Origin: Bacillota bacterium
GTDB taxonomy: Bacteria; Bacillota; Sulfobacillia; Sulfobacillales; Sulfobacillaceae
Reading direction: 5' to 3'
NCBI GenBank assembly: GCA_021797825.1
Contig: JAJZZA010000007.1
Span: 1-64,000, forward strand
Length of the DNA stretch: 64,000 nt
Shown: positions 6,130 to 25,407 of the stretch, piece by piece
Position numbering within the stretch: position 1 is the stretch's first letter
Layout: each line of letters starts with the position of its first letter
Position numbers and translations under genes: made by a program
Notes under the pieces: model-generated
The model's input: only the letters and a program-made list of their open reading frames with translations
Databases searched by the model: none
What the model was told of the DNA's origin: nothing

Positions 6130-6857
6130 GATCCCTCCTCCGTCAACTGCAAAAAGACCGCTTCGAGCGTTTGCTCGCCATCGGTGAGCAGATCGCCCGG
6201 GGCCCCGTCCCACACAATCCGGCCGCGATGCATTATCAGGACGCGGCCGCAGAGCCTCTGCGCCATGTCCAGCAGATGGGTCGAAAGCAGGATGCTGTGG
6301 CCCTGGGCGCAGTATGTGCGAAAGACCTCTTGCAGGGCCAACGCACTAGCCGGGTCCAGACCCACGGTGGGTTCATCCGCCAGCAGCAACAAAGGTTCGT
6401 GCACCAGTTGCGCCACCAAGGCCAATTTTTGTTGCATCCCATGCGAATAACCGTCGCATCGGCGGTGAATCGCATCGTGCAATTGAAACCGGCGTACCAG
6501 CGGTTCGGCACGCGAGGACACGACCTCCGCCGACAGGCCGTACAAACCGCCCACAAACAGGATGTACTCCCATCCGGTCAGCAACGGAACCATCATCGGC
6601 TGATCGGCCAGATAACCCAGGGATTGTTTGGCCGCCAGCGGATGAGTAGCCATCGAGTACTGGCCGTAGGCAACACTCCCCGAAGTTGGCTCCATCAAGC
6701 CCGCCAACATCCGCAGGGTTGTTGTCTTGCCCGCGCCATTGGGGCCTAAAAGCCCCACCAAGGTCCCGGGCGCAATTGCCATATCCACGCCATCCACCGC
6801 CACCAGGCCGCCAAACCGACGGCACAGGCCGGTAGCCGTCATAATGCTTTGTGTCAT
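6126..6857 (-). CDS. ABC transporter ATP-binding protein
   Basis: A 243-residue ATPase that would power the adjacent ABC-2 permease. Walker A is GPNGAGKTTT, the Q-loop region is GYLADQPMM, the signature is SHGMQQKLALVAQL (a degenerate LSGGQ, as common in ABC-2 exporters), Walker B is LLLLADEPTVGLDP and the H-loop is LSTHLLDMAQ. ATG 6857 is chosen because AAGGAGG precedes it, although the open frame extends to 6899. The gene is first in a two-gene operon with a four-base overlap. Substrate unknown. Confidence 0.88.
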   Translation of the reverse strand: MTQSIMTATGLCRRFGGLVAVDGVDMAIAPGTLVGLLGPNGAGKTTTLRMLAGLMEPTSGSVAYGQYSMATHPLAAKQSLGYLADQPMMVPLLTGWEYILFVGGLYGLSAEVVSSRAEPLVRRFQLHDAIHRRCDGYSHGMQQKLALVAQLVHEPLLLLADEPTVGLDPASALALQEVFRTYCAQGHSILLSTHLLDMAQRLCGRVLIMHRGRIVWDGAPGDLLTDGEQTLEAVFLQLTEEGS

Positions 6858-7903
6858 GCTGACGCCTCCTTGCTGCGATGGCCGCAACCAAGGTGCCAAT
6901 CCAGGCTAAACGCGCCGCCACGGCGTCTTAGGCACCGGTAACCATCGAAGCTCGCATAAATTGTGTCCGCGCCATTTCCAAGCCGGTCAATGGCATCTTT
7001 TGGGCCGGAGCGCCGCCGGGATCATCTTAAGGCCGAGGAATGCTTTCCTCCAACTCAAACCCGATGACGCCAAACCGGGGTGGCCAGTCAGCGCACGCCT
7101 CCGTCCGCCGGCCGAGGCGGTGCGGGCGGCACCGTGGCGTTTCGTGCGCGCGCCGCCGGCAGCACAAGATGGCACTGCGGGCCGCAATCCATCCCATCTT
7201 ACGAGCCGGACCCTCCCCTTTTCACCGGGGAGCGGCCCGCCGGGATTTCCCGTTTCTGGCCATACCGACCCCAATCCGCCACCTTCCTGCGTTCTGGCCA
7301 CGCGTCCTCTGGGGACCGGCGCTCAGTGGCCGGAATCTTTGTGAACCGGGCCGGCCGCCTGGAGTACCCCGCCGGCAAGAGTCCGCGGACCCAGGTCGCC
7401 CCCGCCGCCACGCCCGGAGCCCAGGGGTTTGGCCGCGCCGACAACCCTCCCCGGTCACGCTGCCGCTCGGCTCCCCGGACCGCACCCCGGTAGCCGGATA
7501 ATGGACGGCCTGCCGCGGGCCCGGTCGAGCCGTGGAGGCAAGGCGACCCGGCCCGAAGCGAACGGTCCTTGCCCTTCCGGCCGGGGAGGACGGCCGACTG
7601 GCCCTTCGTCTTAGGCTCCGAACCGCCAAAAGGCAACGTACCGGCGATGGCGCCCCGGCGTGCCGGAACCGGACCCCAAAGCCAGGGCCGAATAGAAAGG
7701 CCGATCGTTTTACGCGTACCGGAACCCGGACCGCCGCGGGGTGCTCTTCCGAGATGCCCTGTCCACCCCTGCCGGCAGGATGTCCGCGCGGTTCGACAGC
7801 GGGCCTCATCCCAAGGCTGGATCTGGGCCTGGCGCGATCCGGGGCGACCGGGTAGCCGGATCAAGAGCGGACACGCCCCTCGCCTGGCCGACACCTCTCG
7901 CCT
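6858..7903. other. 1-kb gene-free GC-rich stretch
   Basis: Overlapping frames occur on both strands, the longest on the minus strand at 7199-7894. Their translations are Gly/Pro/Arg-rich without domain motifs and none has a ribosome site, so they look like compositional artefacts. The stretch should contain the promoter of the ABC exporter operon near 6858-6950, but I could not identify it with confidence. No tRNA or hairpin array was recognised. Confidence 0.45.
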
Positions 7904-20924: not shown

Positions 20925-21605
20925 ATGCCGCAGCCTTTCATCGATAATCGTTTGTGGCCGCTTCTTTCCCAGCGGATTCGCATTCCCGCCTATACCGCTG
21001 ACGCCTGGCAAGCTTGGTTAAGACCGGCCATCGAATATCCTGATACCCCGAAGGCTTGGGGAACCAACAGCACATGGAACGCGGTTCGAGCCGTCGTGCA
21101 GTGGCACGCAGTGCAAGACCGCACGCTTCGCCTATGGGGCTGGCCGACCGTGCAGGCGGCATGGACCGCGCAAGGCGGCCCGACCTGGGATCCGTGGGCC
21201 CTTGCGCTGGTGGCCGGCGCGATTGATTCAACAACCGCGGTGGCGGAGTTTGACACTCCTCACGTCTTGCATCATCCGCTCGAACCCGGCCTTGCGCTTT
21301 GGGCCTGGGCCGCGCTGCCGCACGTGACCCATTGGCCCGATTTGACCGGTCTCGCGCCGCTGCTGGCACTGGACGCGGTATTGCGGAGTTTGGTTTCTCC
21401 TTCGCCGCGACCAGCCCACCCGCACTTTTGGTCGGCGTGGGCGGCGTGGGTGCAAGACCCGCCGCCCCAACCCACGGATACGGTTGCGGTTTGGTATCCG
21501 GCTTCACTCTTCACAACCTGGGCACAGGCGCTGGCGACGGCGGAAACCCTAATAACGGGGATTCCCGCGACCATGCCCGCAGCGCGTCAGTTGTCGTGGT
21601 GGTGA
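20925..21605 (+). CDS. Tryptophan-rich protein of unknown function
   Basis: A 226-residue protein I do not recognise. It is a credible gene: TTTGGAGG lies nine bases before ATG 20925 and the frame is open to a TGA at the end of a WW pair. I count 21 tryptophans (about 9 percent), many spaced in short motifs such as RLWGWP, AWAAW and TWDPW, plus many Pro and Ala. There is no signal peptide or clear membrane helix, and Cys is absent. The first 25 residues (PQPFIDNRLWPLLSQRIRIP) look like a structured start. It sits alone between degenerate DNA and an IscB relic, so it may be a lineage-specific or horizontally acquired gene. Confidence 0.6.
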   Translation: MPQPFIDNRLWPLLSQRIRIPAYTADAWQAWLRPAIEYPDTPKAWGTNSTWNAVRAVVQWHAVQDRTLRLWGWPTVQAAWTAQGGPTWDPWALALVAGAIDSTTAVAEFDTPHVLHHPLEPGLALWAWAALPHVTHWPDLTGLAPLLALDAVLRSLVSPSPRPAHPHFWSAWAAWVQDPPPQPTDTVAVWYPASLFTTWAQALATAETLITGIPATMPAARQLSWW

Positions 21606-21729
21606 ACAGCGTCTTTTCGGTCAGAAAGCTCAAGTTGTTGCCAACGGAGCCACCAAGAGTAGATATATCGCGAGTCGCAGGAGCTGTGCAAGTGCTAGTT
21701 CCGCATCTTATTACGACTCAAAACTGTCA

Positions 21730-21957
21730 ACTCCCCCGCCCTAAGCACGGAGCTTGAGGGAAGCCGAGAGCTCAGGTTGACCAGGGAAAGCGGTCGCCAA
21801 CCCGCTACGGTATGTGGAGTGCCGAAGACCGACGCCGGGATGCTTCCTCAGTTCCAGCCTCGCGAAGCCCCGATTGCAGACAAACGGGAGGGGCCGGGCG
21901 ACACGAATCGGGGCCGATGGCCGCCACCCCATTTTCCGAGGGGAGGCAGACCGTAAG
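21730..21957 (+). ncRNA. OmegaRNA/HEARO-like RNA upstream of an IscB relic
   Basis: The 230 bases before the IscB-like frame contain structure expected of an IscB guide-RNA scaffold. A hairpin-like CTCCCCCGCCC...GGAG...GAGGG lies at the left end (about 21731-21760). AGCGG...CCGCT follows near 21791-21808, and a perfect 9-bp stem GCCCCGATT (21867-21875) pairs with AATCGGGGC (21906-21914) around further G/C-rich stems. HEARO RNAs (omegaRNAs) are known to lie immediately upstream of iscB with the guide at the 5' end. The assignment rests on position plus stems; no covariance search could be run. Confidence 0.5.
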
Positions 21958-21963
21958 GACGAT

Positions 21964-22240
21964 TTGGCGGTATTGGTGCTGGACACCCGGAAGACGCCGC
22001 TCGTGCCGTGTTCGGAGAAGCGGGCACGGTTGCCGTGGGAACCAGGCCGAGCGCGTGTGCAGCGGATGGTGCCCTTTACCATCCGACTGGTATTCGCAAA
22101 CGGGAGGATTCCAATGCTTTAGCGGAATACGAACGAATGGGGCAAGGGATCTGCCGTAAACGGTGCCTTTTCGGCTTAACGGGTCGCTATCCGGATCCCG
22201 GCCCGGAGAGTCAACTCGCCTATGGATATATAAGGATTGC
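21964..22240 (+). pseudogene. iscB: IscB (RNA-guided nuclease) relic
   Basis: From TTG 21964, after GTAAGGAC, the frame reads LAVLVLDTRKTPLVPCSEKR and then GRARVQRMVPFTIRL. This is the N-terminal PLMP domain of IscB, the transposon-encoded ancestor of Cas9. A TAG at 22120-22122 ends this frame. About 65 bases on, in another frame, DPGPESQLAYG (22188-22227) matches the RuvC-I motif usually seen as IDPGSKTTGIA, preceded by the PFRL that normally leads into it. No bridge helix, HNH or RuvC-II/III region is convincingly readable before 22850, whereas a whole IscB needs some 1.2-1.5 kb. The gene is therefore frameshifted and truncated. TTG might still give a short PLMP peptide. Confidence 0.6.
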
Positions 22241-22768
22241 CACCCCACATACAAGCAACTGGTCCTGGGGGTGGTGGCCCGAACCGAGGGGAACCCCTAT
22301 GGGGTGGATGTCAGTGACGGCAACATGGATGACCCCAGGTGGAGTCGCCCTGCGGTACTCCAGACCGGCTCTACCTTGGGGAAAGCCGCCCGGGCTCGAA
22401 CATTATTCGTCGCCGATGCCAAATTCGTGAGCCAAAACCCCGTCGCAGATTGGTGCCAATGGGGAGTCCGCTTGGTGGCCCGACTCGCCCATACGTGTGG
22501 ACGCGAACAGACGACGCCACACCCGCCATCAATGGGAAGCGGTCGGGACGCTCGGCGACCCAAACGCCCCCTGACTTACACAATGTGCGAGCTGCCGGGG
22601 ATGATCCGGGGCCAGTCCGTCCGGCTGATTGCATGCGGAGCTACGCAAATACCTCACATAATTTGACATTTTGGGTCCCCCGCTCCGCCCTGCCCTCGTG
22701 GCCTGCTCCCGCCTCGCCGGGTGGCCCGGGGTGCCCGCACGCCATTTAAACTCTTTTTAAATAAACTG
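22241..22768. other. Stretch without an intact gene, possible further IscB remains
   Basis: Frames such as 22163-22666 are open but have no recognisable domain. A segment near 22380-22470 (ARARTLFVADAKFVSQNPVA) loosely recalls the Arg-rich bridge region of IscB but is too weak to claim. Composition becomes A/T-rich after 22740, where the promoter of the next operon begins. Confidence 0.3.
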
Positions 22769-22797
22769 TTGATTCCTAAGTTTCCCCCTTTTATAAT
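22769..22797 (+). promoter_or_regulatory. Sigma-A promoter of the sugar ABC/TatA operon
   Basis: TTGATT (22769-22774), 17 bases, TATAAT (22792-22797). The -10 box is perfect and the spacer optimal. The start would be near 22804, about 47 bases before the first gene of a ten-gene operon. Confidence 0.75.
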
Positions 22798-22803
22798 CTT
22801 AGT

Positions 22804-22815
22804 GAATCGATATTC
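22804..22815 (+). promoter_or_regulatory. Candidate operator at the transcription start
   Basis: GAATCGATATTC has inverted GAAT/ATTC arms around a CGAT core and sits exactly at the predicted start site. The LacI gene inside the same operon (28994-29995) is the obvious candidate regulator. The centre is not perfectly symmetric, so this is tentative. Confidence 0.35.
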
Positions 22816-22850
22816 TGTAGTCTGAATTGTCCGACTTCGGGAGGTATCTT

Positions 22851-23948
22851 GTGTCTGGACTAGCCGTCAACGAGGTAAAGAAATCCTACGGACCGGTTGA
22901 AGCCGTCAAATCGGTGACCTTCACCTTGGAACAAGGCCAATTGATGTGCCTGTTAGGTCCTTCCGGTTGCGGAAAGACAACGACGCTGCGCATGATCGCC
23001 GGTCTGGAATTCCCCGATTCGGGGGACATTCTGTTAGGTGACCGCCGGCTTAATGCGCTGGAACCGCGCGAACGCCGGATTGGGATGGTTTTTCAAGGAC
23101 TGGCCCTATATCCGCACATGACCGCCCTGCAGAATATCGGCTATCCCTTGAAAGTGCGCCGCATGGCCCAGGCGGAAATCGCTACACGAGTCAACGCCAT
23201 CGCGTCCACGCTAGGCATTGCCCATTTACTGGCGCGCAGACCCAGTCAGCTAAGCGGAGGCGAGCAGCAGCGCGTGGCTCTCGCCCGCGCACTGGTGCAA
23301 GAACCGGAACTCTTTTTGTTGGACGAACCACTTTCGGCGCTCGATGCCAAGGTGCGCACGGTTATGCGGGAAGAGATCCGAAATGTCCAAAAGCGGCTCA
23401 ATATCACCACCGTGCTGGTCAGCCATGACCAACTCGACGCGCTCAGCATGGCAGACATGATTGCCGTGATGAAGGACGGTCAAGTCCAACAACTGGGATC
23501 GCCGCACGATATTTACTATCAACCCGCCAACACGTTTGTGGCTCAATTCATCGGTGAACCGACCATGAACCTGCTTGACGGCGAGCTGGGATCCACCGGC
23601 CATCTAACGTTTCTTGGCCACACCATTTCAGTCGGCGCCGCGCGCAGCCAATCCGAACCGGTCGTGGTGGGGTTGCGCCCCCAGGACTTTGTCGCGTTGA
23701 GGCACCCGACTCATGAACTGCTGGAGTTCGAGGGGAAGATCGTTTCAACCCAACCCCAAGGCCCGGACATCGTCATGCGCATTCTCTTGCGCGACAACAC
23801 CCTCGTCGTCCTATTGCCCTGGACACATCCATGGTCGGAGGGGGACACTATCCGGTTAGGATTTCCTTCGGTCCACATGCACCTCTTCAACCGGTACAGC
23901 GGAGAACGCCTGCCGGAGTCACCGAACGCACTGAGAGAGGAAGGATAA
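22851..23948 (+). CDS. Sugar ABC transporter ATPase, MsmK/UgpC-like
   Basis: A 365-residue ATPase of the carbohydrate uptake (CUT1) class. Walker A GPSGCGKTTT, Q-loop MVFQGLALYPHM, signature LSGGEQQRVALARAL, Walker B LFLLDEPLSALDA and H-loop VSHDQLDAL are all intact. They are followed by a C-terminal OB/TOBE regulatory region of about 110 residues. GTG 22851 is chosen because GGGAGG lies six bases before it; the frame itself opens at TTG 22827. It is the first gene of the operon and would power the two permeases downstream. Confidence 0.9.
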   Translation: MSGLAVNEVKKSYGPVEAVKSVTFTLEQGQLMCLLGPSGCGKTTTLRMIAGLEFPDSGDILLGDRRLNALEPRERRIGMVFQGLALYPHMTALQNIGYPLKVRRMAQAEIATRVNAIASTLGIAHLLARRPSQLSGGEQQRVALARALVQEPELFLLDEPLSALDAKVRTVMREEIRNVQKRLNITTVLVSHDQLDALSMADMIAVMKDGQVQQLGSPHDIYYQPANTFVAQFIGEPTMNLLDGELGSTGHLTFLGHTISVGAARSQSEPVVVGLRPQDFVALRHPTHELLEFEGKIVSTQPQGPDIVMRILLRDNTLVVLLPWTHPWSEGDTIRLGFPSVHMHLFNRYSGERLPESPNALREEG

Positions 23949-23949
23949 C

Positions 23950-25407
23950 GTGGAAACCAAGAACAACGGCATCACTCGCCGGGATCTGATGAAAACGGCG
24001 GTCGTCGCGGGTTCAGCCCTGGTCGGGGGCGGAGTGCTGACAGGCCTGGCGGGCTGCGGCACCTCGTCCACCCCTGCGGCATCGAGCAGCGGCAAAGTCT
24101 CCGCTCCCACCGGAACCGGCACGGTTGCCATCGAGTGCGACGCAGGACAAAACGAGGCGCCTTTTCAATGGTTCTCCTCGGCCCTCAAAACGAAATACGG
24201 GGCCGAAGTCAACATGATCGGGCTGCCCTTCGTCGGCCAATATCAACGGCTGGTCACCGAGTTGGTGGCGCGTTCCGCAGTCTACGACCTGATGGTATTC
24301 CCGCCGCAGTTCATGGGCGATTTCGTCGCCAAGGGCTTTTTGGAACCGTTGGACCAATACACCAGTTTAGTCAACCCCAATTTGCCGGACGTGATGCCGG
24401 CCTACCGCGACCCCAACCTGATGCGCAATGGCAAGCTCTACGCGCTGCCCTATGACGGTGACATTCTCATGTTGACTTACCGCCAGGATTTGTTCTCCGA
24501 TCCCACCGAGCAAGCCAACTTCCAGAAAAAGTACGGACGGCCGTTGGCGGTTCCGACCACCTGGGACGAATTTATTCAGGTCGCCCAATTTTTTACCCGT
24601 CCCCCGCACCTGTACGGCGCCGGAATTTACGGCCAACGCGGATTCTGCTATGCCTGGTTCGTTAATATCATGGCGGCTTATGGCGGCAAGTGGTTCGACT
24701 CTTCGATGAACGCCACCGTCAACTCGCCGGCGGGCGTCACCGCGCTCACCAAGCTGCTGGAGATTGCCAACTATTGCCCGCCTGGGGTTCTGCAAACCGG
24801 ATACCCGCAGTTGAACCAAATTTTTCTGGACGGCTCCACCGCGATGGTCATCCAGTGGGACGATCTCCCGCTCAAAGTGGACAATCCGGCCATGAGCCAA
24901 GTGGTCGGCAAGGGCAGTTTCGCCCCCTGTCCGGTGCGCAACTATATGCCGTACTCACGCGTCATGGCCGTCTCCGCCTTCTCCAATAACAAAGCGCGCG
25001 CATACGAAGTGGCGGCCTACATGACCCTGGAAGGCTATAAGTATGTCTATGACCCCAACTGCGGCGAGGATCCCTATCGAACCTCGCAGTTGCATGCCAG
25101 TTTGGTCAAGACGCATACCGGTCAGCCGTCGATGCCGGCCGCCCAAGCCAGTGAGTATGTGAACGCGATTAAGGGCTGCATCGCCACCGGCTATCCGGAA
25201 CTGAGCATCCCAGGCGCTCCCCAGTATCTTGATCTGCTGGATTTGTTCGTCAACCAGGCTCTCGCTGGCACCTTGTCCCCCAAGGCCGCCCTCGATTCCG
25301 CGGCGAGCGAATGGGACAGCTTGACGCAATCTCTCGGCGTGTCAAGCCAAACCGCCGCTTACCAAGCGTGGATTACCAGCTTCCGTGAAGCCGGAATCCA
25401 ATATTAG
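23950..25407 (+). CDS. Sugar-binding lipoprotein with twin-arginine signal (SBP family 1)
   Basis: A 485-residue extracellular solute-binding protein of the CUT1 type. The N-terminus carries ITRRDLMK, a twin-arginine motif, then a mild hydrophobic stretch and the lipobox LAGC (Cys at about residue 36), then a Ser/Ala-rich tether. It should therefore leave the cell folded through the Tat system and be lipid-anchored. Later motifs such as GKLYALPYDGDILMLTYRQD and the WDEF region are usual for the family. Start GTG 23950 follows GAGAGGAAGG. Tat export fits with the tatA-like gene at 28801-28965 in the same operon. Confidence 0.88.
   Translation: METKNNGITRRDLMKTAVVAGSALVGGGVLTGLAGCGTSSTPAASSSGKVSAPTGTGTVAIECDAGQNEAPFQWFSSALKTKYGAEVNMIGLPFVGQYQRLVTELVARSAVYDLMVFPPQFMGDFVAKGFLEPLDQYTSLVNPNLPDVMPAYRDPNLMRNGKLYALPYDGDILMLTYRQDLFSDPTEQANFQKKYGRPLAVPTTWDEFIQVAQFFTRPPHLYGAGIYGQRGFCYAWFVNIMAAYGGKWFDSSMNATVNSPAGVTALTKLLEIANYCPPGVLQTGYPQLNQIFLDGSTAMVIQWDDLPLKVDNPAMSQVVGKGSFAPCPVRNYMPYSRVMAVSAFSNNKARAYEVAAYMTLEGYKYVYDPNCGEDPYRTSQLHASLVKTHTGQPSMPAAQASEYVNAIKGCIATGYPELSIPGAPQYLDLLDLFVNQALAGTLSPKAALDSAASEWDSLTQSLGVSSQTAAYQAWITSFREAGIQY

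Follow-up and report, generated by a model that had tools for sequence, protein, structure and literature searches.

Remnant of the 5' part of an IscB element, probably dead, and its decayed omegaRNA in a genome of the Sulfobacillaceae

Background

In relatives of the element studied here that carry an intact IscB (OMEGA) element, the HEARO RNA, or IscB omegaRNA (RF02033 in Rfam), lies directly upstream of the iscB start, at a distance of about 40-50 nt, and the intact ORF has 471-482 aa. The right end of intact copies (...CCGGGGTTTCCCGCGCAACTGG) is immediately followed by ATGA, and in many cases the next gene starts with the ATG of this motif. At five of the loci catalogued here the element abuts an ATGA that serves or potentially serves as such a start, and the genes that follow include a glycosyltransferase, a CimA-like enzyme and a lipoprotein. 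Such elements are common in this family, with HEARO matches in 27 of the 61 genomes searched and RRXRR matches in 31. In the structure of IsrB, the 3' hairpins of the RNA make contact with the PLMP domain, and nicking activity drops when both are removed (PMC9581776). Standalone omegaRNAs have already been described, according to a passage of the same paper that cites earlier work.

Here we examine a locus in the window, that is, the whole stretch of 64,000 nucleotides analysed (positions 1 to 64,000 of contig JAJZZA010000007.1, assembly GCA_021797825.1). From its letters alone, the locus had been read as the relic of an IscB element with a recognizable omegaRNA-like leader. The comparisons presented below suggest, with a probability of about 95%, that it is a dead 5' fragment of such an element with no present function in RNA-guided cleavage.

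Results and discussion

An omegaRNA leader and the first codons of iscB

By cmscan, RF02033 covers model positions 1-211 at 21726-21951 of the plus strand with 63.6 bits (E-value = 3.8e-12), and a covariance-model search of the whole genome returned the same match (E-value = 2.2e-12). The left end of the element is located at 21726, where the sequence begins with GTCAAC. The score is below the curated gathering score of 83, and for this reason an Rfam scan of the window with default settings yields no match; the E-value is significant nonetheless. In this full-length match, the 5' GTCAAC/GTTGAC stem, the nexus hairpin, the GGGA-UUCC pairing and internal hairpins are retained as in other HEARO RNAs, whereas the first hairpin is damaged. 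The perfect 9-bp stem of the original prediction (21867-21875, GCCCCGATT, with 21906-21914, AATCGGGGC; plus strand) is present and can be read directly from the sequence. It is homologous to an internal HEARO stem, and the HEARO alignment places a stem of different sequence at this position in the relatives.

As in known HEARO systems, the RNA is directly followed by an iscB start, but the spacing is only 12 nt. The iscB stub (21964-22092, plus strand; 41-45 codons) encodes the PLMP (RRXRR) domain. Residues 53-93 of the ORF at 21814-22119 match positions 1-41 of the 174 in Pfam RRXRR (PF14239; E-value = 1.3e-8), and the ORF also matches positions 1-41 of the 314 in NCBIfam guided_IscB (NF040563; E-value = 2.6e-9). 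In a protein search of the whole genome, residues 1-45 of an intact IscB aligned at 21964-22098 with 78% identity, and the PLMP sequence LAVLVLDTRKTPLVPCSEKRARL...FTIRL is likewise 78% identical to that of the intact protein of a sister genome. The closest intact relative at the DNA level, the iscB of G019:C118 from the same family, is 80% identical over 21965-22091. The start codon of the stub is TTG; in the relatives it is ATG. Both the HEARO-model and the PLMP-profile searches were positive, and the reading of the locus as an IscB relic with PLMP domain and omegaRNA leader is borne out by these matches.

Decay of the RNA and of the ORF stub

The RNA had been thought better kept than the ORF, but this does not hold when the two are compared per site: the RNA has accumulated substitutions, several indels and broken helices, whereas the ORF stub is collinear and gap-free. 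An alignment of six sequences gave 56-66% identity and 39-42 gap positions between the relic RNA and its relatives (69-85% and 0-8 gap positions among the relatives themselves), and the stub was 70-80% identical to its relatives with no gaps (73-86% among the relatives). The RNA spans the whole model and the ORF does not because of where the truncation fell; the ORF is shorter through truncation, not through faster mutation.

Base pairing was compared for the relic and twelve relatives against a consensus structure that was computed each time with the sequence under test left out. As aligned, the relic makes 43 of the 83 consensus pairs (52%), or about 49 of the 83 (~0.59) after hand correction of its 9-bp stem, which MAFFT misplaces (about six pairs are added), whereas the twelve relatives, ORF-deleted copies included, form 0.90-0.99 of the pairs, with one exception at 0.80. 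The helices kept are the 7-bp terminal stem, the GGGA/UUCC pairing, the nexus hairpin, one internal hairpin (7 of 8 pairs) and the 9-bp stem; those lost are the 12-bp long-range helix (1 of 12) and the 3' hairpins (3 of 8 and 0 of 3). The predicted fold is no more stable than shuffled sequences (z-score = +0.50, compared with -1.69 and -1.67 in two relatives). The RNA, in which the long-range helix and both 3' hairpins are broken, the pairing is low and the fold is at the level of shuffles, is therefore decayed and probably not a working guide RNA. The generic Rfam alignment gives the relic only slightly more broken pairs than the relatives (about 11 versus 8-10). The covariance-model score alone is no proof of decay, because the 63.6 bits of the relic exceed the scores of certain elements in the family whose iscB frame is long and open (e.g. 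54.9 bits for G012:C57 and 52.5 bits for G002:C148).

Broken copies elsewhere in the genome

Searches of the genome assembly (97.5% complete, 156 contigs) with PF14239, RF02033 and a 471-aa IscB query detected no intact IscB, although absence from a draft assembly is no proof; only two further broken copies were found, on contigs C53 and C106. Downstream of the HEARO relic on C53 (7328-7595, minus strand) come an IscB/HNH remnant, spread over three frames and lacking PLMP, and a right end before GTGA. This relic as a whole (about 6400-7595) lies between a DabA-like and a phosphoenolpyruvate-synthase-like gene; its HNH region is readable and its frames are broken. The third HEARO relic, on C106 (13822-14079, minus strand), consists of the RNA, codons 397-471 and the right end directly before ATGA.

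The genome searches thus lend no support to the suggestion that an IscB from another locus of this genome could use the RNA in trans. An omegaRNA that is still produced and taken up by an IscB whose gene lies elsewhere in the cell would be in keeping with the match over the whole HEARO model, with the ORF-less HEARO elements with well-kept RNA in related genomes, and with standalone omegaRNAs working with IscB, as reported in PMC9581776 from earlier work. However, the assembly contains no intact IscB, the fold is no better than shuffles, and the relic has lost its long-range helix together with the 3' hairpins, whose deletion lowers IsrB activity (PMC9581776). Judged on these sequence features, a trans-acting RNA here seems very unlikely. 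The same small chance is given to a wider version, in which the omegaRNA at 21726-21951 would still be transcribed and act in trans with an IscB missing from the draft, as one case of a wider pattern of HEARO RNAs outliving the nuclease gene in this lineage.

The missing remainder of the element

Homology to IscB ends at ~22092-22112. After the PLMP stub there is no RuvC-I, bridge helix or HNH, only the 41 of 174 and 41 of 314 model positions mentioned above being present, and in the 2 kb that start at 21726 a tblastn search with intact IscB recovered residues 1-43 only, with no HNH, RuvC-II or RuvC-III. Compared with an IscB nuclease, the relic stops after ~44 of the ~471 codons and is devoid of RuvC-I/II/III, bridge helix and HNH. 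A few last iscB bases may follow after a 1-base frameshift (22093-22119, plus strand), up to the stop TAG at 22120. With four of nine relatives the collinear local alignment can be extended to 22112-22113, and the homology fades by ~22112; the extension from 22093 onward is by itself no better than shuffles (62 of 500).

The open frame from TTG 21964 to TAG 22120 (52 codons), with AAGGA a few bases upstream of the TTG and 78-80% identity of its PLMP part to intact IscB, could be taken for a short PLMP-only peptide that continues to be produced and plays an independent role. However, a frameshift and a premature stop lie just past the truncation point, the start codon is changed, and pN/pS is raised (0.17-0.36 against the relatives, compared with 0.04-0.23 among them), and such a peptide is extremely improbable. 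We know of no function for an isolated PLMP domain.

The right end of the relatives (...GCCGGGGTTTCCCGCGCAACTGG before ATGA or GTGA) could not be found in 21000-24000, where the best chance match (E-value = 0.005) lies upstream of the RNA. Having no recognizable right end, the locus is therefore a fragment with one end and not the product of an internal deletion. The reading as a non-autonomous miniature element (ends and RNA with the ORF internally deleted) mobilizable in trans by a Y1 transposase is rejected on the same ground and has almost no chance of being correct, even though the family has many internally deleted copies in which RNA and right end are kept, C106 here included, and several Y1 transposase genes are present in the genome.

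Mobile-element debris next to the fragment

The string DPGPESQLAYG (22194-22226), formerly read as a displaced RuvC-I motif, does not belong to IscB; it corresponds to the YPDPGPGSQPVYG stretch of an IS1634-family transposase. The RuvC-I reading is rejected since the sequence LTGRYPDPGPESQLAYG (~22176-22226) of the window aligns with LTGQYPDPGPGSQPVYG of a relative's intact 617-aa IS1634-family transposase. Where the intact protein reads LTGQYPDPGPGSQPVYGHSKDGHP, the window has LTGRYPDPGPESQLAYG, which a frameshift separates from the following KDCHPTYKQLVLGVVARTEGNPYGVDVSDGNMDD. The transposase relic (~22176-22642, plus strand) gives a match to NF033559 that stays under the cut-off of this profile. 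It resembles the IS1634 family in protein identity (45-50% over up to ~160 residues, the YPDPGPGSQPVYG motif included, with the intact transposases of genomes G001 and G025; 46% over 161 residues with an intact homologue), but differs in being internal and frameshifted, with no ends seen, and in scoring below the NCBIfam cut-off (28.1 bits, E-value = 1e-6, against 100 bits).

A piece of a dispersed repeat (27-29 bp; 22146-22172, minus strand; GAAAAGGCACCGTTTACGGCAGATCCC) sits between the IscB stub and the IS1634 relic. It has three other copies in the genome, with none expected by chance in the window. The repeat reads GAAAAGGCACCGTTTACGGCAGACCCC...GGGGTCAGTGGTGCC, and most copies, compared at five further loci, are followed by a GCCCC-CTTTAG-GGGGAGGATGTCC hairpin, which resembles the ends of IS200/IS605 elements; no ORF was recognized alongside. 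It could represent the guide-RNA end of a TnpB element standing alone. An Rfam scan of 22085-22260 gave chance-level matches only.

Related elements in the family

In several copies from relatives, the middle or most of iscB is gone and the RNA and right end are kept. Internal or N-terminal deletions of this type were recorded at seven loci, one of them the C106 copy of the present genome, and in most of the deleted copies tested the RNA pairing was as good as in intact copies. Genome G050 contains a family of miniatures of ~350-360 bp (contigs C20, C6, C39, C22 and C35), which consist of HEARO RNA and a right-end segment with no ORF. Five copies score 135-146 bits with HEARO. Along the element, members of this family share 89-95% identity, and no intact RRXRR protein was found in that genome. 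These miniatures are candidate standalone omegaRNAs. Synteny could not be used to find an empty or orthologous site of the present locus in relatives, the homologues of the upstream ORF having 32-47% identity and those of the downstream solute-binding protein about 30% or less.

Conclusion

In short, the locus is ordinary genomic debris, in which an IscB remnant lies against the remnant of a second, unrelated transposon. It retains the left end of the element with a decayed HEARO omegaRNA and the first ~44 iscB codons, lacks the remainder of the nuclease and the right end, and passes into the debris of other mobile elements, namely the short piece of dispersed repeat and the IS1634 transposase fragment. 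The order of events is a reconstruction, and we infer that the locus is not expressed and has no function.

Taken alone, the fragment is one more decayed IscB element and of little weight. It does illustrate that a short D-P-G string close to an IscB stub is no sign of RuvC, and that even a dead omegaRNA leader can contain one perfect stem. The ORF-less elements with well-kept HEARO RNA, which are common in related genomes, are the more useful lead and the better ground for testing the use of such RNAs in trans; they could show whether omegaRNAs persist without a nuclease in cis.
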